A stretch of DNA of 64,000 bases from Rapana venosa (Eukaryota; Mollusca; Gastropoda; Neogastropoda; Muricidae), in assembly GCA_028751875.1 (NCBI GenBank), contig CM054153.1, positions 22,287,230 through 22,351,229 on the forward strand, given 5' to 3'. A program made the position numbers and the translations under genes. A model generated the notes under the pieces. The model saw nothing but the letters and a program-made list of their open reading frames with translations. It had not been told where the DNA came from and did no database searches. Positions 23,479 through 62,740 of the stretch are shown here, one piece after another (the stretch's first letter is position 1; every line of letters begins with the position of its first letter).

Positions 23479-25245
23479 ATGTTCAAGCTTGAGAGAGAAA
23501 ACCATGACAGAGAAGAACAACTAGCCAACTGCACCCTGTCTGATGATCTCAGAGAAGAACAACTAGCCAATTGCACCCTGTCTGATGATCTCAGAGAAGA
23601 ACAACTAGCCAATTGCACCCTGTCTGATGATCTCAGAGAAGAGGAACTAGCCAACTACACCCTGTCCAACTTTGATGAGCTACCTGTCTTGACTCCATAA
23701 ACCCCCCCCCCCCACAAACTTTGGATAAAACAAATGGCTCTGTTCAGCATGAAAGATCCTCACCCTTACCCGTAAATGCTTTGAGCCAAAGCAGCCACCA
23801 GGAGGAAACTACTGTCAGCACTTTGGCACAGAGAGGAAAACAACACAATGCCTCCCAGCATATGAATGAACGCATGATTCAGAGATCACAAAGAGATCTC
23901 CAATGAAATCACACCAGTGAGGTCACTCCAGTTCAAGCTGAAAACAGACAGAAAATGGAGAGTCCAGGAATGCAGCGAAAAGAGAACCCTAAGCTGACTA
24001 AAGTAATAAAGGAGCATACACAAACCAACCAACAGGCAGTGACTGGGATCATCAAAGTGGTGGTCGAAGGCTGAAGGCAAAAGCAAGAGAGATGGCAATG
24101 CAGGAGATGAAGACAGAAGATGCCAGACCAGCACTCCACAGGAGTCTCAGCTGGGATGACACGTGGTCCCTCTTCAGATCAGCTTCACCGTCAGATCTGA
24201 ATATTCCAACACCTACCTCCCACTGTAAACCTGGAGACACAGGAAGAAATCAGGTGATTCTGCATGTAACTCCCTGTCACAGCAAACCACACAGTAGAGC
24301 ATGTTCTCAGCTCATGTAAGCCAAGGCATGGAGGCTACAATGTAACTGTTGGACCCCGTTTGGCATATGCCTCCAATGCCTGCTCAACTGCTGCCAAGAC
24401 TTAGACGCAGAACGCTGGCCTCAGACTCATCACAGGTGGCATGACAACCACTCCAGTGTCAGCCATGGAAAAAACAGCAGGCCTCCTCTCACTTATAGAA
24501 AAGAACCAAGAAAGCTCCTGAGGCAAAATGAGAAGCTGAAGAGGCTCCCCTCACACCCCCTCCTCCTGATATTGAAAGCCTCCCACAAAGAACTGGTGGA
24601 AGGGGCAGAGTCCTAACCATTTAATCAAGGCTCTTGAGAGGCAACACCACCATCCTCTCTCAGCAGCCAACCAGTTGACTGAATATCTCCAGGCAATGAG
24701 GACTAGCAGACAGACAGCCATCACGCTCAACAGCCCAGGAGTTTGGAACACAGAGTGCCACATAGCAGCTGACCTACAGTCACTGACCACCACATACCCT
24801 CCCAATACCTGGGCCAGAGTGTACACAGATGGGTCTGCTGAAGCAGCAGTGAAAAACGGAGGAAGCGGGGCGTCCATCAGATTCCCTGATGGCAGGACCA
24901 TCAGGAAGTTTCTGGCCACAGGCATCCTGCTCACCAGGCCTGTGCTCTGCTACTTGCAGCCAAAACCCTCAACCTGGAGGACACTCTTCCAACCAACACA
25001 GTGTTCCTGACTGACTGCAAGTCCATTCTGCAGAGTCTCCATGCACCAGAAGAAGAGCAGACACCAGACAAGAGCTAAGCATCCTCAGCCAGAGGACTGT
25101 AGCGGTGCTGCAATGGATCCCCTCCCATTCTGGCATAAGTGGGCAACGAAGAGGCGGACCACCTGTTTAAGTCAGGCAGCAACTTGGAGCAGCCAACCCA
25201 CCCGGTGTCATACAGTGATGCAAGGGCAATCCTGAGGAACACCAC
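23479..25245 (+). pseudogene. Decayed non-LTR retrotransposon (LINE) ORF2 with RNase H remnant
   Basis: The RNase H signature is spread over several frames. WARVYTDGSAEAAVKNGGSG (near 24820) carries the first catalytic Asp of the TDGS motif. FLTDCKSILQSLH (near 25010) matches the usual TDxxSxxxxL helix. VLQW..PSH and GNEEADHLFKSGS (near 25110-25190) match the terminal GNExAD motif. The order is correct for an I/Nimb/Jockey-group ORF2. Stops and frameshifts are frequent, so it is inactive. The reverse transcriptase part is not clearly recognisable upstream, and 23479-24600 is assigned only tentatively. Confidence 0.6.
23509..23676 (+). repeat. 42-bp tandem repeat, 4 copies, open on both strands
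   Basis: Three nearly identical 42-bp units (23509, 23551, 23593) and one diverged unit (23635) encode REEQLANCTLSDDL in one frame. A 74-codon frame runs from ATG at 23479 to TAA at 23698. The opposite strand is also open. No protein family is recognised; it may belong to the adjacent LINE. Confidence 0.8.
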
Positions 25246-37456: not shown

Positions 37457-38290
37457 TCAATCATCGGCATTGGCGTAGTCATACTGCACAAGACTGTCGT
37501 GAAGGTACAACGTCAGCGGGCCACTGATCAGTTTGTGCTGCGTCTGCGCCGTCACCGCCGCGGGGAAAGGGAAGGAAGAAGTCAAAAAGCTCGAGTTGAG
37601 CGCGGACTGACTCTCCTGCGAAAACACAAGCCCTGAATTGGGACGGGGGAAGCCGTGGCGCTCCTTCAGCACTTTCTGCTGTTCCAGGATCTTGAGTTTG
37701 TGGTCCAGGCAAATGACCTCCTCAGCCAGCAAGCACTGCTGAAGGTACTCGGCTGGCCGGCCCCCGCCCAGGATCTGCGCGGGCACGCACCAGCGGAGGT
37801 AACACTGAGACCACAGCTGCAGGCCAGCCACCAGGCTGCACACAGGCAGCAACACCTCACGCGCCGGCTTCTTGAACAAGTCTTTCCGCCGCGCCAGGTC
37901 AAAGTGGAACTCCGTCAAAGTCCGGGTGTAGGTGGCGGCCGGCGACAGCTTCCCCGCCCGCTTGAGCGACCCCTTGGCGCTGGTGATGACCTCCTCAAGG
38001 TCGCAGGTGTCGTTGAGGGAGTAGAGGGGGTTGTTGAAGAGCATGATGTCGTCCTGGGTGAACTGCAGGTGCCACTCCCAGGCGCTGGGGAGGCAGACGA
38101 TGGAGAGCTTGCGGCCCTCGCGGTAGAAGCGATGCCGGCACCAGGCGGAGTCGAAGAGGAAGGTGTCGGTGACGCCCAGCTGCACCGTGTCCCACAGGGT
38201 GGTGAGGAAGGTCTCCGTCATGCCCAGGCGGGAGGGGAACTGCTGCAGCAGCTGCCACACACAGTCCAGGAACAGCAGGAACACCGGGCA
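37457..38290 (-). CDS. MTMR10/12: MTMR10/12-like terminal coding exon (exon 13 of those visible)
   Basis: 834 nt, phase 0, beginning CPVFLLFLDCVWQLLQQFPS and ending YANADD plus TGA at 37457-37459. It finishes the phosphatase-like fold (LFLDCVWQLL...F, then TFLFDSAWCRHRF and PSAWEWHLQF..DDIMLFNNPLY). It then encodes the subgroup-specific C-terminal region with YLRWCVPAQILGGG, a short coiled-coil-like EEVICLDHKLKILEQQ, and SSFLTSSFPF near the end. The start is fixed by the acceptor TTTTGCAG and the phase-0 donor at 42733. The reading frame stays open upstream through ten 36-bp repeats, each with its own acceptor copy, so alternative longer exon starts are possible. Confidence 0.92.
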   Translation of the reverse strand, partial: CPVFLLFLDCVWQLLQQFPSRLGMTETFLTTLWDTVQLGVTDTFLFDSAWCRHRFYREGRKLSIVCLPSAWEWHLQFTQDDIMLFNNPLYSLNDTCDLEEVITSAKGSLKRAGKLSPAATYTRTLTEFHFDLARRKDLFKKPAREVLLPVCSLVAGLQLWSQCYLRWCVPAQILGGGRPAEYLQQCLLAEEVICLDHKLKILEQQKVLKERHGFPRPNSGLVFSQESQSALNSSFLTSSFPFPAAVTAQTQHKLISGPLTLYLHDSLVQYDYANADD

Positions 38291-38644
38291 CTGCAAAACA
38301 GCCAACACTCCAGCATTTACCGGGCACTGCAAAACAGCCAACACTCCAGCATTTACCGGGGACTGCAAAACAGCCAACGCTCCAGCATTTACCAGGCACT
38401 GCAAAACAGCCAACACTCCAGCATTTATCGGGGACTGCAAAACAGCAAACACTCCAGCATTTATCAGGGACTGCAACACAGCAAACGCTCCAGCATTTAC
38501 CGGGGACTGCAAAACAGCCAACGCTCCAGCATTTACCAGGCACTGCAAAACAGCAAACGCTCCAGCATTTACCGGGGACTGCAAAACAGCAAACACTCCA
38601 GCATTTATCAGGGACTGCAACACAGCAAACACTCCAGCATTTAC
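38285..38644 (-). repeat. 36-bp minisatellite, 10 copies, at the last intron's 3' splice site
   Basis: Ten head-to-tail 36-bp units begin at 38285 and every 36 bp thereafter. On the gene strand each unit holds GTAAATGCTGGAG, then TGTTTTGCAG, then TGCCCG or a variant. Each copy therefore duplicates both the acceptor and the first codons of the exon. The length is a multiple of 3, and the frame remains open across all copies, encoding NAGVLAVLQCPV-like units. Units 3-6 resemble units 7-10 one for one, which indicates a 144-bp higher-order duplication. Confidence 0.95.
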
Positions 38645-39423
38645 CCTCCATTCCACATGGGAAGAAAAACCATGGATTTTTCTGCAGGTCCTTTTTTAAG
38701 CAAATATTTCAGCCAGTTCTGGTTCAATCCCCATTTTATTTATACAAATAAAGAGTAAGAAGTCTGGGGTTGTTTTTTTTTTAATTATACATTCTTTCTC
38801 ATTGATATAAAAATTATATAAAACATCAAGAAATAGAAATCATGACTAACCAGCTTAATGCAGAAAAAGTAGTGGAGGAAAACAAGTGCAAGTAACCGCT
38901 TACAACTTCTCAATCATTTTTGAAAATGATTTCCAAAGATTCATTTTAAAAGAGAAAAAAAAGACTAAACAGCTTAAATGATAAACAACTAACTGTGGAC
39001 CTTGGACTACTTTTTTTTTGTTAACAAAAACTATTAAGTCTTTACAGATTAAATATCAGCTTGTAGATTTCTAGGGCGAGTTTTGGTTGATTTTTGTTGT
39101 TTAAGTTTTTTGAGTGCTTTCTTTTTTTAAAAGTTCATGCTGTTTACTAGTAATACTGCTACTTGATGTGAAAGAAACTTTTTCCTGGGGGAGGAACTCA
39201 GTCCCTCGTTATCTGATTAATCATTTAAAACAAATTATGCTGCAATCAGCATCCAAGCTTTTTCTTCTCAGTGCATTTCCACATTTAAAAACACAACAAC
39301 AATACTTACACGGACTTGCAAAGTTGCATAAAGACCAGAATGCAAAACAAAAGGAAACGTTGTGCAAATCCAAGAATCTACAAGCCACTGTACACAAACC
39401 AACCTCGAATCTCGAATACTGTC

Positions 39424-39605
39424 ACACGTTAAATCCTGTTCCGCTTTTCGTAAGAGTAGGCTATTGTGTGCCAGTGGGAACAGATGACAGAATTTACAAA
39501 ACTGCATACACACAGGGACTGATTGTAAAAAAGCACATAAGTACTTACACCATTATCCTCGATATAAAAGATTAAAATGAAATAAAATATAAATAAAATA
39601 ACTAC
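39424..39605 (+). mobile_element. Family A SINE, tail half
   Basis: GTTAAATCCTGTTCCGCTTT through CCTCGATATAAAAGATTAAA, with an AAATAAAATA-type tail. Confidence 0.75.
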
Positions 39606-42339: not shown

Positions 42340-42630
42340 TGAACTGAATGTCAAAGTCCTTCGGATGAGACTATAACCCGAGGCCCCCGTGTTCCAACGC
42401 ATGCAGAACATCTTGCGCACACGTTAAATCCTGTTCCGCTTTTCGGAAAAGAGTAGGCCACTGTGTGCCGGTGGAAACAGATGACAAAATTGACAAAACC
42501 GCATACACACGGGGACTGGATGTACAAAAAAGCACACGAGTGCTTATTCCATTCTCCTCGATATAAAAGAATAAATAAATGAAAGAATAAATAAATATAA
42601 ATAAATAAATAAAAGAATAAATAAATAAAG
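42340..42630 (+). mobile_element. SINE: family A body with a fragment of another SINE upstream
   Basis: TTGAACTGAATGTCAAAGTC and CCTTCGGATGAGACTATAAC lead into the family A body, ending in an AATAAATAAATA tail. Immediately upstream (42245-42325) is a minus-strand tail fragment of the head type 3 SINE (TTTCTCTGCGCGAAATTAGG). Confidence 0.8.
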
Positions 42631-42732
42631 AGCAGCGCCATCCATTACCGGACAACTGCAGTGGTACAACAAAACTGCTATCACCTGTACGTCAAAACCC
42701 AGGCCCCTGGTCGCGCCCCTCTACCCACCCAC

Positions 42733-42905
42733 CTGTTCGCTCTCCGTGCCTTGCACCAGGTGATTTCGGCGCTGGAAGGGGTGCCCCATCACCACCCACT
42801 CCCGCTGCACCAGAGCAGCGAAGCCCTGCTGCGTGCGGTAGAAAGGGTCCAGCATGATCTGCACCAGGCAGGAGATGATGCAGGTCACGTCAAAGCCCGT
42901 CTCCT
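42733..42905 (-). CDS. MTMR10/12: MTMR10/12-like coding exon 12
   Basis: 173 nt between GTTGGGCAG| and |GTGGGTGG; it enters in phase 1 and leaves in phase 0. It encodes EETGFDVTCIISCLVQIMLD, then PFYRTQQGFAALVQREWVVM and GHPFQRRNHLVQGTESEQ. This is the segment just after the P-loop in myotubularins (family: TxxVxSLxQxLLDPxYRTxxGFxxLVxKEWV). The usual WDRT of the active site reads FDVT, so the catalytic Arg is missing. Confidence 0.92.
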
Positions 42906-44022: not shown

Positions 44023-44566
44023 CTGACAGGAAAGAGGACTGAGCATGATCAGTTGACATCATACGGAGTGAAATTTATTACATTTGTTGCCTGAATGTAA
44101 AGAAAGAATCCGAAAAAAATTTTTAGATTTGGTTGAGTAGTTTAGCTGTGAATATTTCAAATTCAAACATTTTTTGGGCACATTTTTTGTGGGGAAATCG
44201 GCACATGGCGAACCTTTACAACTTACTAGAATTCCTTTTCATATATAATAAGACGGTAAGTGAGTTTTAGAGGCTTGAACTTGTAAAGAGATTTTGAAGT
44301 GAGACAAATCCTGGGTCAATCATGACCTAGTTGTGAGCAATGGCCTACTTATGAACAATGATCCTCTGCTCAATGATTTTTTACTCTCTCTCTCTCATAC
44401 CAGTTATTACATACAGGGAAAATGTCTTTGGAAGTTTTATCATCAATCTTATGCAGTTGATGATAAAAAAAAAAAATTCTTCATTATTTTTTTTGTAGTG
44501 AGTGTACGTGACTTGCGGAGTTGCTTCTCTTTGGTATGGCTCTCTTAGTCATGAATGTAAGAACTC

Positions 44567-44999
44567 GTTCACACAAAAAAACCCCACAAGAAACCAAAAA
44601 CACACAAACAAAAAGAACTCGGTCACAAAAAGCCACACAAGAAACCAAAAACAAACAAACAAAAAGAACTCAGTCACAAAAAAACCCACACAAGAAACCA
44701 AAAACACACAAACAAAAAGAACTCGTCACAAAAAACCCCACACAAGAAACCAAAAACACACAAACAAAAAGAACTCGGTCACAAAAAAACCACACAAGAA
44801 ACCAAAAACACACAAACAAAAAGAACTCGGTCACAACAAAAACCCCCCACAAAAAACCAAAAACACACAAACAAAAAGAACTCGGTCACAAAAAAAACCC
44901 ACAAGAAACCAAAAACAAACAAAAAGAACTCGGTCACACACCAAAAAAACCCCACAAGAAACAAAAAAACCAAACAAACACAAAGAACTCGGTCACAAG
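44567..44999. repeat. Minisatellite, unit about 52 bp, about 8-9 copies
   Basis: Units of GAACTCGGTCACAAAAAAAC plus CACACAAGAAACCAAAAACA plus CACAAACAAAAA repeat with small length changes. The array creates a spurious 247-codon plus-strand frame. It ends 38 bp from the donor of exon 45038-45168. Confidence 0.95.
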
Positions 45000-45179: not shown

Positions 45180-46385
45180 TCTTTATTCGTTTATTTAGGA
45201 ATTATTGGTATCACGCACAATCCATGTTCATTTGTTAGGTATTAAGGATTTGACACACATTCTATGTCCATTTATTTAGGTATCAAGGATATGACACACA
45301 TTCTATGTACATTTATTTAGGAATTATTGGTATCACACACAATCCATGTCCATTTATTTAGGTATCAAGGATATGACACACATTCTGTGTCCATTTCTTT
45401 AGGTATCAAGGATATGACACACATTCTATGTCCATTTATTTAGGTATCAATGATATGACACACATTCTATGTGCATTTATTTAGGTATCATTGATATGAC
45501 ACACATTCTATGTGCATTTATTTAGGTATCATTGATATGACACACATTCTATGTGCATTTATTTAGGTATCAAGGATATGACACACATTCCATGTCCATT
45601 TATTTAGGTATCAATGATATGACACATTCTATGTGCATTTATTTAGGTATCAATGATATGACACATGTTCTACGTCCATTTATTTAGGTATCGAGGATAT
45701 GACACACATTCTATGTCCATTTATTTAGCTATAAATGATATGACACACATTCTACGTGCATTTATTTAGGTATCAGTGATATGACACACATTCTACGTCC
45801 ATTTGTTTAGGTATCAGTGATATGATGACACACATTCTATGTCCAATTATTTAGGTATCAATGATTGATCACATGAAATACCTTCTATATCCATTTATTT
45901 AGGTATCAATAATTGATCACATGAAATACATTCTATATCCATTTATTTAGGTGTCAATAATTGATCACATGAAATACATTCTATATCCATTTATTTAGGT
46001 ATCAATTATTGATCACATGAAATACATTCTATATCCATTTATTTAGGTATCAACTATTGATCACATGAAATAATTCTATATCCATTTATTTAGGTATCAA
46101 CTATTGATCACATGAAATACATTCTATATCCATTTATTTAGGTATCAATTATTGATCACATGAAACACATTCTATATCCATTTATTTAGGTATCAATTAT
46201 TGATCACATGAAACACATTCTATATCTATTTATTTAGGTGTCATTGTCTGATCACATGAAACACATTCTATATCTATTTATTTAGGTATCAATTATTGAT
46301 CACATGAAACACATTCTATATCTATTTATTTAGGTGTCATTGACTGATCACATGAAACACATTCTATATCTATTTATTTAGGAAT
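45180..46385. repeat. Minisatellite of two unit types (about 41 and 48 bp), about 27 copies
   Basis: The left half has units of TTAGGTATCAAGGATATGAC plus ACACATTCTATGTCCATTTA. From about 45850 the unit changes to TAGGTATCAATTATTGATCA plus CATGAAATACATTCTATATC plus CATTTATT. On the MTMR coding strand every unit carries AATAAA. The array begins about 12 bp from the acceptor of exon 45038-45168. Confidence 0.95.
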
Positions 46386-46480
46386 CTCCCCTAAAGTCAG
46401 AATGCGGCTATTTTAATGGCAGCAAAAATGGTTGCATTTGCAAAATCTCTTCATTGGTGAACCTCGGAGCTCTAGCCAAG
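46383..46480 (+). repeat. Dispersed repeat D, copy 2
   Basis: TAAAGTCAGAATGCGGCTAT, then TGGTTGCATTTGCAAAATCT and GTGAACCTCGGAGCTCTAGC. It retains the TTTTAATGGCAGC segment that is split by an insertion in the 57590 copy. Confidence 0.75.
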
Positions 46481-50353: not shown

Positions 50354-51850
50354 TTAACCCTTTACCATTCGCATTTCTTACAGAGAAACTCTCTGTAGTA
50401 TTCAAAAATTTACGCAGTTTTTTTAAGAGAATAAGGTACCTCAAGTACACATAGTGCTGTACAGTAACCATTGTTCGCAGAGCAGTCATATTTGGCCAAA
50501 GTATTCATATGATGTCATACTTTGTTCTGCACCCCAAGATGTGTGTCCTACCTACATGTGTCGTGCTGCTGTCCCCTCTTTGTCACCAAATAAAGGTAAA
50601 ATTGCAGTGACATCATACTGTTAGTCTACAACTACACTCTAACATGCGCAATATACGTATGTGATTATAAAAAAAAATAAGTGTGGTCCTGCCTGAATGT
50701 GTCCTCCATCACATCCACCGTCATGGTAATCCAATCGAACATTCACACTTGTCACAAAATTACTGTCACCAAGTCTACATTTTCTGATTGGAAAGTATTC
50801 AAACATATTGAAAACGACATTGACTAATGTGCATATATACGTTATTTACAAATATATGCTCACGCCTACTATTTACAAAGACACTAGTGTGTCCTTCACC
50901 AATAGCCAGTAACATGGCTGTCACGATGCAGGTGTCACAGCCCAGTGTTGCGTCCAGGTGTGTTGGCGTGTTTCGAGGGTGAAAATACTGATTAATTTTG
51001 AGAAATCTGATTTTCGTCATAATATTACTGATCAGTGACTCAGAAAATCTCAAATCAGTAGACCAGTAGAGATGAAGCCTTGGCAAACGCTTGATCCCCA
51101 TCATGATCAAAACTGACAGGTAAGCCCTTATTTCCTCAGGTGTTGTTTCTGTCCATAATGGATCTATGACTAAGCCTTTCACAGCGATCTTTTGCCTGGC
51201 ATAAATGTTAGCTTCATTTGCTACAGTTTGAAAAATATGTTGGGGCGCAAACAAAACAAAGTAATCTAAGGGCTTGGCATTCAGTGGGAGAGTATGTGCC
51301 GGCCCAGTCGGCAGCGTGAAGTCTTGCACTGTGCAAGGCACTTGTGCGCCGCGCCATGTCGTCTGCTATGAAGCCAACGGAATGTTATCCTCAGCATCAC
51401 TTTCCGACTCACTACCTTCTCCTATTTCATCTCTTTCTTCTACATCTACTTCAACATCGTATTCAACATTTTATTCTCTTTCGAACTGTTCCACTTGAGC
51501 CAAAATAGCTTCAATTTCCACATCAGTATATTCCTCCCAAATTGTATGCTCAATCTTTGCTGCCATTTTTAGCTACAAGAAAGCGTGGAAAAGACAAAGC
51601 CAGTCACTGGCCAATTTCTTGTGAATGGGAGGCTGTGTAGCACTGAATTTGGTACCTATTCCTTCCTTAGTTTATGCTGACTTCAGTGGAATGTTCATTC
51701 ATAGTGTGCGTGTACTAGGTAGAGAGCTTAGTGCATGAGGGAAATTCCCCACTAGGCTGAAATGACGTCCGGCGGGCTGCGGCAGGTATAAATAGATGCG
51801 GGTGAGCGGGCAGCGGCAGGCTACGGCGGGTAAAAATGGGAAAGGGTTAA
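50354..51850 (-). mobile_element. piggyBac-like element (TTAA target), about 1.5 kb
   Basis: TTAA at 50354-50357 and 51847-51850 flank inverted ends CCCTTTACCATT (left) and CCCTTTCCCATT (right, inverse complement). The subterminal region has GGCTGCGGCAGG-type repeats, also seen near the right end of 59066-60544. It contains a transposase remnant on the minus strand. Confidence 0.8.
50799..51566 (-). pseudogene. piggyBac transposase N-terminal remnant
   Basis: ATG at 51566 gives an acidic N-terminus (WEEYTDVEIEAILAQVEQFE), interrupted by TAA (51471-51473) and TAG (51366-51368). The frame then continues with VQDFTLPTGPAHTLPLN, ETTPEEIRAYLSVLIMMGIK and RLPRLHLYWSTDLRFSES to RFLKINQYFHPRN. The order (F-x2-ANxYA, EIxxYLxVxIxMGIxxLPxxxxYW, RFxxIxxYFHxxx) is that of the piggyBac (PGBD-type) N-terminal part. 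The catalytic Asp domain is deleted; intact proteins are about 500-600 residues. Inactive. Confidence 0.8.
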
Positions 51851-51959: not shown

Positions 51960-52119
51960 TTATATATAACCACTAGGCCACTGATCCAGCCCTAGAGGGC
52001 GGGCTGGCTGGCTGGCTGGCTGACTGACTGACTTACTGGCTGTCTGTCTGACTGACTGTCTGACCAACTTACTGGCTGACTGACTGACTGACGGACTGAC
52101 CTGGTACTGATGGACTAAC
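51960..52119. repeat. TCAG/CTGG tetranucleotide repeats and duplicated splice-donor segment
   Basis: The plus strand has CTGG and GACT tetranucleotide runs from about 52004 to 52092. A 19-bp segment is then duplicated, so the gene strand carries AGTACCAG|GTTAGTCC (donor, exon end 52120) and again AGTACCAG|GTCAGTCC (exon end 52101). Confidence 0.85.
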
Positions 52120-52240
52120 CTGGTACTGATGGAGTACTGCCAGTTGACGTCAGTGACCCTCCAGCCCCCTTCGCAGTTCAGTCGCGTCAGCTCCTTCTGC
52201 CAGTCCTCCTGCACGTAGAAGTGATTCCGCTGACTGTTCT
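52120..52240 (-). CDS. MTMR10/12: MTMR10/12-like coding exon 7
   Basis: 121 nt, acceptor GTTGTTGCAG|, donor |GTTAGTCC; phase 1 in and phase 2 out. It encodes (E)NSQRNHFYVQEDWQKELTRL then NCEGGWRVTDVNWQYSIST. In the family this is the linker to the phosphatase domain (W..E..R.G....WRV..VN..Y.....). A second, 19-nt downstream donor would shift the frame, so the 52120 end is preferred because its phase joins exon 8. Confidence 0.92.
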
Positions 52241-54490: not shown

Positions 54491-54798
54491 GGAAGTCGGA
54501 ATTTGGTGATGGTTAGTTGCTGGGACAGTCCCTTAACCCAGATAATTCTGCTGGGACTCTTAATTAAATACTATCAAACCAAACCAAAAATTAGAAGTAA
54601 AATATCAAAGTCGTCCCAGAATGTTCCAGGTGCCATGACCTGCATTAATATGTATGTTTCAAAAATCCTCTTCAGAGTATGGCGGCCTATATAATGACTT
54701 ATGTCAAACAAACTTTTTATTGAATGTGTATGTACAGTCTCACAGTGCTACTGTGAAGAAAATGAAACACAACTAAATGTTCTAAACTGAGATCTTAC

Positions 54799-54855
54799 CC
54801 TTTTGTTTTGATCCTTGGGAACAAACTTGAAACCAAACACATGGATCCTGAAATC
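54799..54855 (-). CDS. MTMR10/12: MTMR10/12-like coding exon 5
   Basis: 57 nt, acceptor CTTTTCAG|, donor |GTAAGATC; phase 0 both ends. It encodes DFRIHVFGFKFVPKDQNKR. Joined to exon 4 it gives HCKDFRI, the conserved CKDFRxxxF strand of the PH-GRAM domain. Confidence 0.92.
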
Positions 54856-55134
54856 CTGAAAAGAAAAAAATTAAGGAAAATGAATTTCATTTCACAAAGT
54901 GGCAAGCTTACATAGACGAATGCATGCAGGTACATAAATTTGGATTTGCACAAGTGCATATCTGGCTTCAAAAGTATGGAAGATATGTGATAATGTGTAC
55001 ACACACACACACACACATATATAAAAATATATATATATATACAAACAGGCATACACAGGCACAAACATACACTCTTAGTCTTACACAGGAAATAACAAGT
55101 TCTAAAAGAATAAATCAACAACATAAAAGAAATC

Positions 55135-55428
55135 GAATGGGTTCGATTCCCAGCCTCGCCCTTTCTTCCCAGTTTGACCCAAAAAATTGAACTGAATGTC
55201 AAAGTCCTTCGGAGGAGACTATAAACCGAGGCTCCGTGTTCGAATGCATGCAGAACATCTTGCGCACACATTAAATCCTGTTCCGCTTTTCGGAAGAGTA
55301 GGCCATTGTGTGCTGTGGAAACAGATGACAGACTTTACAAAACCGCAAACACACGGGGACTGGATGTAAAAAAACACGAGTGCTTATTCCATTATCCTCG
55401 ATATAAAAGAATAAATAAATAAATAAAA
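55135..55428 (+). mobile_element. SINE, head type 2 remnant plus family A body
   Basis: GGGTTCGATTCCCAGCCTCG (B box), TGACCCAAAAAATTGAACTG, then the CCTTCGGAGGAGACTATAAA central block and the family A tail AATAAATAAATAAA. Confidence 0.8.
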
Positions 55429-55494
55429 TCAGACATGAAGACACCATTAAGAACACAAAGACTGCTCAAGACTGCACAAAGACTGGAAGGAGGG

Positions 55495-55832
55495 TGGCAG
55501 GATGGTTAAGACGTTCGCCTGCCAAGAAATAAACTGTGAGGTTATGGGTTCGATTCCCAGCCTCGCCCTTTCTTCCCAGTCTGACAAAAAAATCAAACTG
55601 AATGTCAAAGTCCTTCGGATGAGACTGTAAACTGAGGCCCCGTGTTCGAACGCACGCAGAACATCTTGCGCACATGTTAAAATCCTGTTCCGCTTTTCGG
55701 AAGAGTAGGCCATTGTGTGCCGGTGGAAACAGATGACAAAATTGACAAAACTGCATACACACGGGGACTGGATGTGAAAAAGCACATGAGTGCTTATTCC
55801 ATTATTCTCTATATAAATAAATAAATAAATAC
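55495..55832 (+). mobile_element. SINE, head type 2 plus family A body, full length
   Basis: GGCAGGATGGTTAAGACGTT (A box), GGGTTCGATTCCCAGCCTCG (B box), GAATGTCAAAGTCCTTCGGA, then body and AATAAATAAATA tail. It is 5' complete, unlike its neighbour at 55135. Confidence 0.85.
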
Positions 55833-56075
55833 AGCACTAAGCTGGTGGTTTGATGGTGAAGGTCTCGGCCAACAACCGAAACACCTGTTCAAGGAGATTT
55901 TGCCCCTGGAGTTAACCATCAGCACTAACATCAGTGCTTTCCCAAAAGCCCTTCGGATGAGACTTTAAACTGTGGTCCCATGTACAAACCGCAGAACATC
56001 TTGCTCACCCATTTAAACCAGTTCCACCAATCGGAAGAACAGGTCGCTGCATGCCAATAGGAAAAGGACTTTTTT
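55833..56075 (+). mobile_element. Family A SINE, diverged
   Basis: CCTGGAGTTAACCATCAGCA, CTTCGGATGAGACTTTAAAC and GCAGAACATCTTGCTCACCC follow directly after the previous SINE tail, so three SINE bodies are arranged in tandem. Confidence 0.65.
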
Positions 56076-61494: not shown

Positions 61495-61735
61495 AAGTCC
61501 TTTGGATGAGACTATAAACTGAGGCCCCGTGTGCAAACACATGCAGAACATCTTGCACACACGTTAAATCCTGTTCAGCTTTTCAAAAGAGTAGGCCATT
61601 GTGTGCCGGCGGGAACAGATGACAACCGCGTACACACGGGGACTGGATGTAAAAAAGCACATGAGTGCTTATTCCATTATCCTTGATATAAAAGAATAAA
61701 TAAAATAAATAAATAAATAAATAAAACACATACAC
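61495..61735 (+). mobile_element. Family A SINE, 5' truncated
   Basis: TTTGGATGAGACTATAAACT, GCAGAACATCTTGCACACAC, GTTAAATCCTGTTCAGCTTT, then an AATAAATAAATA tail that ends 28 bp from the donor of exon 2. Confidence 0.8.
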
Positions 61736-61974: not shown

Positions 61975-62250
61975 TGAGGAGGACAGGAGAATCTGGTTGG
62001 TTAGAGTATTGCGCATTGTACTTGTGATCTGCTGACCCGGGTTTGAATCCCGTTCATGGGGATATTTTCTTCCGGAGTTAACGTCAGTGCCATCTGCACT
62101 CCTTCCAAAAGTTCTTCGGATGAGACTATAAATCAAGGTCCTGTGTGCAAATGTATGCAGAACGTCTTGCACACACGTTAAAACCTGTTCCGTTTTTCAG
62201 AAGAGTAGGCCACTGTGTGCCAATGGGAACGGATGACAAAATTTACGAAA
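61975..62250 (+). mobile_element. Family A SINE with head
   Basis: A degraded A box (GGTTGGTTAGAGTATTGCGC) and GACCCGGGTTTGAATCCCG (B box) are followed by CGGAGTTAACGTCAGTGCCA, TTCGGATGAGACTATAAATC and the body. The tail is replaced by a repeat D fragment (62258-62306). Confidence 0.75.
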
Positions 62251-62566: not shown

Positions 62567-62740
62567 AACCAAACAATCACTCATAATTATAATACATGCT
62601 AACCAGAAAATCACTCATATATGATATATGCTAACCAGACAATCACTCATATATGATATATGCTAACCAGACAATCGCTCGTATATAATATATAATATAT
62701 GCTAACCAGACAATCACTCATATATATAAATATATATGCT
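62567..62740. repeat. Minisatellite, unit about 33-37 bp, 4-5 copies, touching an acceptor
   Basis: Units of GCTAACCAGACAATCACTCA plus TATATGATATAT repeat. The first unit (AAACCAAACAATCACTCATA) overlaps the pyrimidine tract of the exon 62499-62562 acceptor. Confidence 0.85.

Follow-up and report, generated by a model that had tools for sequence, protein, structure and literature searches.

The window, the whole 64,000-nt stretch of Rapana venosa DNA analysed here, carries exons 2–14 of an MTMR10-like gene on its minus strand. The assignment to the myotubularin-related (MTMR) family, proposed in the original prediction, is supported by Pfam. Exon 14 matches PF06602 and PF12578, both above cut-off, and the exon 13 open reading frame matches PF06602. 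PF06602 together with the 3-PAP domain PF12578 is the domain pair of MTMR10/11/12, and it is present in this gene. MTMR10–12 are pseudophosphatases, a group in which the phosphatase activity has been lost. The nearest proteins among the matches listed are gastropod MTMR10-like proteins of Babylonia areolata (83% identity), Nucella lapillus (78%) and Littorina saxatilis (75%), with each identity covering 51% of the query. The exons were rebuilt from tblastn alignments of three proteins (P0001–P0003) and splice signals. The resulting model has 12 introns, all GT-AG, and a single open frame of 699 codons with the stop ending at 37457. Exon 1 was not located because residues 1–62 of the Babylonia protein had no tblastn match in the window above the 26-bit cut. 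Intron 8 contains a transposase-like open reading frame (PF13843, DDE_Tnp_1_7) at 50799–51365 on the minus strand. The last two exons enclose an intron whose end is occupied by a tandem array:

42733..42905, minus strand: exon 13; donor GAACAG/gtgggt at 42733/42732, phase 0, last exon base 42733
38283..38645, minus strand: 36-bp minisatellite of about ten units spanning the intron 13/exon 14 boundary (TRF, unit alignment, pattern search)
38291..38614, minus strand: nine units from first to last acceptor, in frame, 108 codons without a stop (translations)
38614, 38578, 38542, 38506, 38470, 38434, 38398, 38362, 38326 and 38290, minus strand: first exon bases of the ten array acceptors
37457..38290, minus strand: exon 14, the final coding exon, with its true start (TGC CCG GTG) at 38290 and its stop codon at 37457–37459 (tblastn, gene model, Pfam)

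The array was described by TRF with a period of 36, 10.1 copies, 92% matches, 0% indels and a score of 572. Every one of the ten units is closed by TTGCAG on the minus strand, at a spacing of 36 nt, and the ten-copy array of the original prediction is thereby confirmed. The repeat reaches 8 nt into exon 14 (38283–38290). It is confined to this place: a 27-nt unit core searched with up to three mismatches had ten matches in the 64-kb window, all inside the array, and none in 100 shuffled sequences. Six positions vary among the nine full units. Units 2 and 6 are identical, as are units 4 and 8, while three differences separate units 3 and 7. The motif expected in every unit, TGTTTTGCAG, is present in eight of ten; units 1 and 5 carry TGTGTTGCAG instead. 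A GTAAAT downstream of each exon start had also been claimed and is present after only six of the nine extra starts. The copies at 38614, 38470 and 38434 read ATAAAT and lack the GT. Rfam gave no match at gathering thresholds.

The unit positions and the gene model agree with the original prediction that 38290 is both the acceptor of the last unit and the true start of exon 14. Spliced at 38290, the exon 13/14 junction reads ESEQ-CPVFLLFLDC, the protein conserved in relatives. There nothing interrupts the junction, and the residue ahead of PVFL is usually S or A; this pattern was found in 110 of the best 120 of 204 matches. The 70 residues shown ahead of the junction in those relatives hold no array. 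A looser array pattern occurred, within the same best 120 of 204, in two octopus proteins only, as an unrelated INAG. A stricter insert motif was found in none of 161 retrieved proteins, some of which came from searches that targeted the array; in these protein searches, scoring was limited to the candidates with the most shared words (7999, 7998 and 7996). The best match is only 83% identical and the species' own protein seems absent from the database, so the missing motif says little about expression. Six open reading frames of the protein-level comparison (P0007, P0011, P0021, P0032, P0121 and P0122) diverge right before [S/A]PVFLL, as would be the case if they shared this intron end. From these sequences, we infer that 38290 is the acceptor mainly used.

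The strength of the acceptor copies was assessed with a matrix built on the 12 remaining acceptors of the gene, a small set, and with a second, generic matrix; donors were scored with a similarly small matrix of 12 donors of the gene. Scoring covered 223 AGs, from intron 13 and the initial 61 nt of exon 14. In the ranking by the gene's own matrix, the array acceptors take places 2, 4–10, 17 and 18, and the true acceptor is sixth with a score of 10.11. By the generic matrix they rank 6 to 27, with the true one at 18. The outermost acceptor, 38614, is second by the gene's own matrix and 21st by the generic one. The gene's other real acceptors score 0.76 to 15.03 in a leave-one-out analysis; all ten array acceptors fall within this range and are thus ordinary for the gene. 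The upstream copies are comparable with the true acceptor. A full yTnAy branch-point match precedes 38578 and 38434 but not 38290, and a TAA lies at 27 nt for all ten acceptors. Nothing in its score sets 38290 apart from the other copies, and the winning acceptor cannot be told from the sequence alone. The RNA of the array folds at −135.4 kcal/mol (z −2.77, with 2 of 100 shuffles as good), a modest signal; structure could bias the choice of acceptor.

From each of the ten acceptors the reading frame stays open to the same stop, in agreement with the original prediction. The predicted products have 699, 711 and so on up to 807 codons in the part of the gene within the window. The meaning attached to this frame neutrality found no support. 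Stops are absent from five of the six frames across the array, and tandem repeats of a shuffled unit leave any one frame open in 60% of cases; selection for the frame was therefore rejected as evidence. Six codon positions vary among the nine full units. Because five of these changes are nonsynonymous, coding constraint is not visible, albeit in small numbers. Judged by the sequence, the open frame of the array is probably not meaningful.

The proposal that units act as microexons or recursive splice sites is unlikely. The intron between neighbouring units would be 30 nt, below the usual animal minimum, and three of the nine copies have no GT. A ratchet site, which needs an acceptor AG running straight into a donor GT, is not seen either: CAG is followed by TCC or TGC, and a GT comes only after 6 nt and is absent in those three copies. 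Four of the GT copies reach 5.51 and the other two 3.32, against 5.48 for the weakest and 11.0 for the strongest real donor of the gene. Splicing from one unit onto a unit two or more further on, over at least 66 nt, would be possible in principle.

The insert that upstream acceptors would add is hydrophobic, with a mean Kyte-Doolittle value of 1.32 and a maximum of 2.08 over 19 residues. In the Babylonia homologue the insertion point is located just N-terminal of the helix 487–501, in a block with a mean pLDDT of 94 (AlphaFold2 model from 39 sequences, whole-model mean 75.7). According to this model, the insertion site is not a disordered linker. The GHPF-PVFL loop has 13 to 35 residues, with a modal length of 15 (125 of 161 proteins measured). 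One extra unit, giving 27 residues, fits into this range; nine units are far outside it.

Two further arrays of the gene touch or approach exon ends, and repeats recur elsewhere in the window:

52087..52133, minus strand: 19-bp array of 2.5 copies that straddles the donor of exon 8 (52120/52119), with a second donor copy after 52101 (TRF, sequence)
62567..62726, minus strand: 32-bp array of 4.7 copies that stops 4 nt before exon 2; acceptor-like, with a weak TTAG (TRF, sequence)
39268–39552, 42351–42644, 54795–55334, 55447–55836, 61578–61676 and 62129–62242: examples of recurring related translations

The two exon 8 donor copies, TACCAG/gttagt and TACCAG/gtcagt, score 9.41 and 8.31. If used, the second copy would cause a frameshift and a stop at codon 242 of the part within the window; with a period of 19, this array cannot be frame-neutral. 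The exon 2 array was considered as a second tandem acceptor and rejected: the true site scores 14.23, and none of the array's upstream AGs exceeds 0.24. In the Nucella protein P0002 (ACOMHN_022796), an 87-residue stretch at the junction of exons 8 and 9 has an in-frame period of 43 residues, 43 of 44 being identical at that lag. Judged from the protein, this repeat may reflect a donor-containing unit of about 43 nt, or otherwise an annotation choice. It sits at the same junction as the donor duplication in the window and is possibly an independent donor-spanning array.

A hot spot of arrays at splice boundaries is unsupported, since overlap is no commoner than chance. With TRF scores of at least 50, 2 of 25 boundaries overlap an array against a circular-shift mean of 4.13, a comparison based on 29 array intervals merged by hand and on a null that ignores that exons themselves shed arrays. 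Eight of 25 boundaries lie within 50 nt of an array, against 6.37 expected, and restriction to periods of at least 10 gives 2 overlaps against 3.13. Arrays are merely dense in this region. Large ones flank exon 11 at 45190–46386 and 44559–44998 (41/48-bp and 52-bp units), leaving gaps of about 22 nt and 40 nt to the exon. A 42-bp array at 23508–23666 (3.8 copies, 95% match), with a period that is a multiple of 3, lies outside the MTMR10-like exons and is tied to no exon. The recurring translations listed above (such as AEQDLTCAQDVLHAFEHGASVYSL), seen by eye in the lists of open reading frames, suggest a dispersed repeat family that is present many times in the window.

Minisatellites that copy splice sites are known from human genes. 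In intron 7 of F7, 37-bp repeats copy the 5' splice site, and the source describes the most upstream site as the only one normally used (PMC6627357). The unit length is similar to that of the snail array; the first F7 unit holds the real splice site and the other F7 units are highly homologous to it. In IFI6 (6-16), repeat units of a minisatellite are reported as alternative splice donors that yield three mRNA species (PMC4526556); the snail units are candidates for such alternative sites. Both human arrays are donor-side, and for IFI6 the use of the sites was demonstrated, whereas the snail array, known here from its sequence, copies the acceptor side. The VNTR in intron 18 of ABCA7 has a 25-bp unit that starts with a donor, and retention of one unit was given as 2 ± 1% of transcripts (PMC5954066). 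Here, too, the splice site is carried in the unit. The ABCA7 array differs in being donor-side, far larger and, according to the same source, variable between people; its unit of 25 bp is out of frame, unlike the 36-bp snail unit. A VNTR across an intron-exon junction of FAM20C, a position shared with the snail array, is said to affect alternative splicing in a sentence that leaves the type of splice site unstated (PMC5941971). As described in their sources, a river-prawn lectin case (PMC7536079) and the miR-137 VNTR (PMC6692358) are not splice-site arrays of this kind.

Tandem genomic duplication can also create a new intron inside an exon, as outlined in a review of intron gain (PMC3443670). 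The likeness to that process is the tandem duplication of a short segment with splice-site sequence; the snail array, however, copies the end of an existing intron, whereas intron gain of this type makes a new one within an exon. Zhuo et al. (2007) reportedly described human introns that originated in tandem arrays. The snail array has tandem units of at least 10 bp at an exon/intron boundary and a usable splice-site sequence in each unit, two of the marks of a splice-site minisatellite. Among the cases of stated type found in print (F7, IFI6 and ABCA7, as described in the cited texts), all are donor-side. Since the acceptor is copied here and not the donor, the array is classed as a variant of the F7/IFI6/ABCA7 kind. 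No acceptor-side array of stated type was found in the open-licence literature searched, and a precedent in print may exist.

The array is a genuine splice-acceptor-spanning minisatellite and probably near-neutral. The flanks suggest how it could have started. Exactly 360 nt separate the GGT at the 5' edge of the array from the GGT that lies 8 nt into exon 14, and a single-copy ancestor would therefore have had 36 nt between them. A tandem duplication of this segment, bounded by the intronic and the exonic GGT, would give the observed unit. Growth to ten units may have followed, partly by copying of more than one unit at once; the identities of units 2 and 6 and of units 4 and 8 weakly suggest such joint copying. 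Each unit would then have carried, as the present units do, an acceptor within the score range of the gene, and any of them keeps the frame. The 3'-most acceptor, 38290, beside the real exon, would be the main site and make the conserved protein. Splicing to one or more upstream copies may also occur, at low to moderate frequency, and would lengthen a loop of the phosphatase-like domain by 12, 24 or more residues. Because duplication of a boundary always leaves one intact copy, the array could persist close to neutral and would not be a selected device. It is in line with the insert-free junction of relatives, with array acceptors of ordinary strength, with a loop range that admits one extra unit and with the lack of visible coding constraint. 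The ABCA7 report (PMC5954066) offers a precedent for a repeat unit whose splice site is used at a low level. Ladder splicing is plausible. We give this explanation, a lineage-specific near-neutral minisatellite grown from an ordinary boundary, with 38290 as main site and minor upstream copies adding 12-residue steps, an even chance of being right. Against it, 38290 does not outscore its copies and lacks a full branch-point match, and folding of the array RNA may bias the choice. By analogy with F7 (PMC6627357), the outermost acceptor might win, and a hydrophobic insert would fall into a stretch that the structural model predicts to be well ordered.

If exon-bound signals fix the choice, 38290 alone would be used, the array would be a silent intronic minisatellite and its frame neutrality a matter of chance. 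The conserved protein of relatives without an insert, the missing insert motif in the 161 proteins, the five open frames and the exon 8 array with its frame-breaking period are all consistent with this. On the other hand, the scores of the nine upstream acceptors are similar to that of the true one, and no mark in the sequence makes 38290 stronger; a silent array is possible, if on the doubtful side. Another alternative is the original prediction of a length-variable tandem acceptor, a functional isoform ladder with a copy number differing between individuals. Ten comparable in-frame acceptors and a loop of variable length in the family would suit it, but there is no sign of coding constraint and no conservation in the relatives retrieved, and we consider it quite unlikely. 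That 38614 is the main site and the whole array exonic, adding 108 residues, is very improbable. Its second rank by the gene's own matrix and the use of the most upstream site in the F7 donor array, as reported (PMC6627357), speak for this option; its 21st rank by the generic matrix speaks against it, as do 108 hydrophobic residues in an ordered stretch, far over the loop range of 13–35. Finally, the length or presence of the array could be an assembly artefact. Tandem arrays are often mis-sized in assemblies, but long reads exceed the roughly 360 bp of the array, and six differing positions among nine full units are not expected from a simple duplication error; an artefact is hardly credible.

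The first codon of exon 14 gives a hint of exchange between array and exon. The commonest array copy has TCC (Ser), and Ser is also found in Babylonia and Nucella; the exon has TGC, like the neighbouring unit. The pattern fits array-exon exchange. An independent change is also possible, as Littorina has Cys there too. A more far-reaching idea is that the minisatellite forms a copy-number-tunable 3' splice site, in which array length would set an isoform ladder of the MTMR10-like protein and array-exon exchange would edit the first exon codons (Ser to Cys). We regard this as unlikely. If it were true, the gene would be a naturally occurring test case for spliceosomal choice between ten near-identical acceptors 36 nt apart. 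Ten such frame-neutral acceptors on one exon would be a natural experiment on 3' splice-site choice that sets the first AG against exon proximity and branch-point strength. Together with the exon 8 donor array, they suggest how minisatellites can arise at exon edges and persist, with one intact boundary always remaining.
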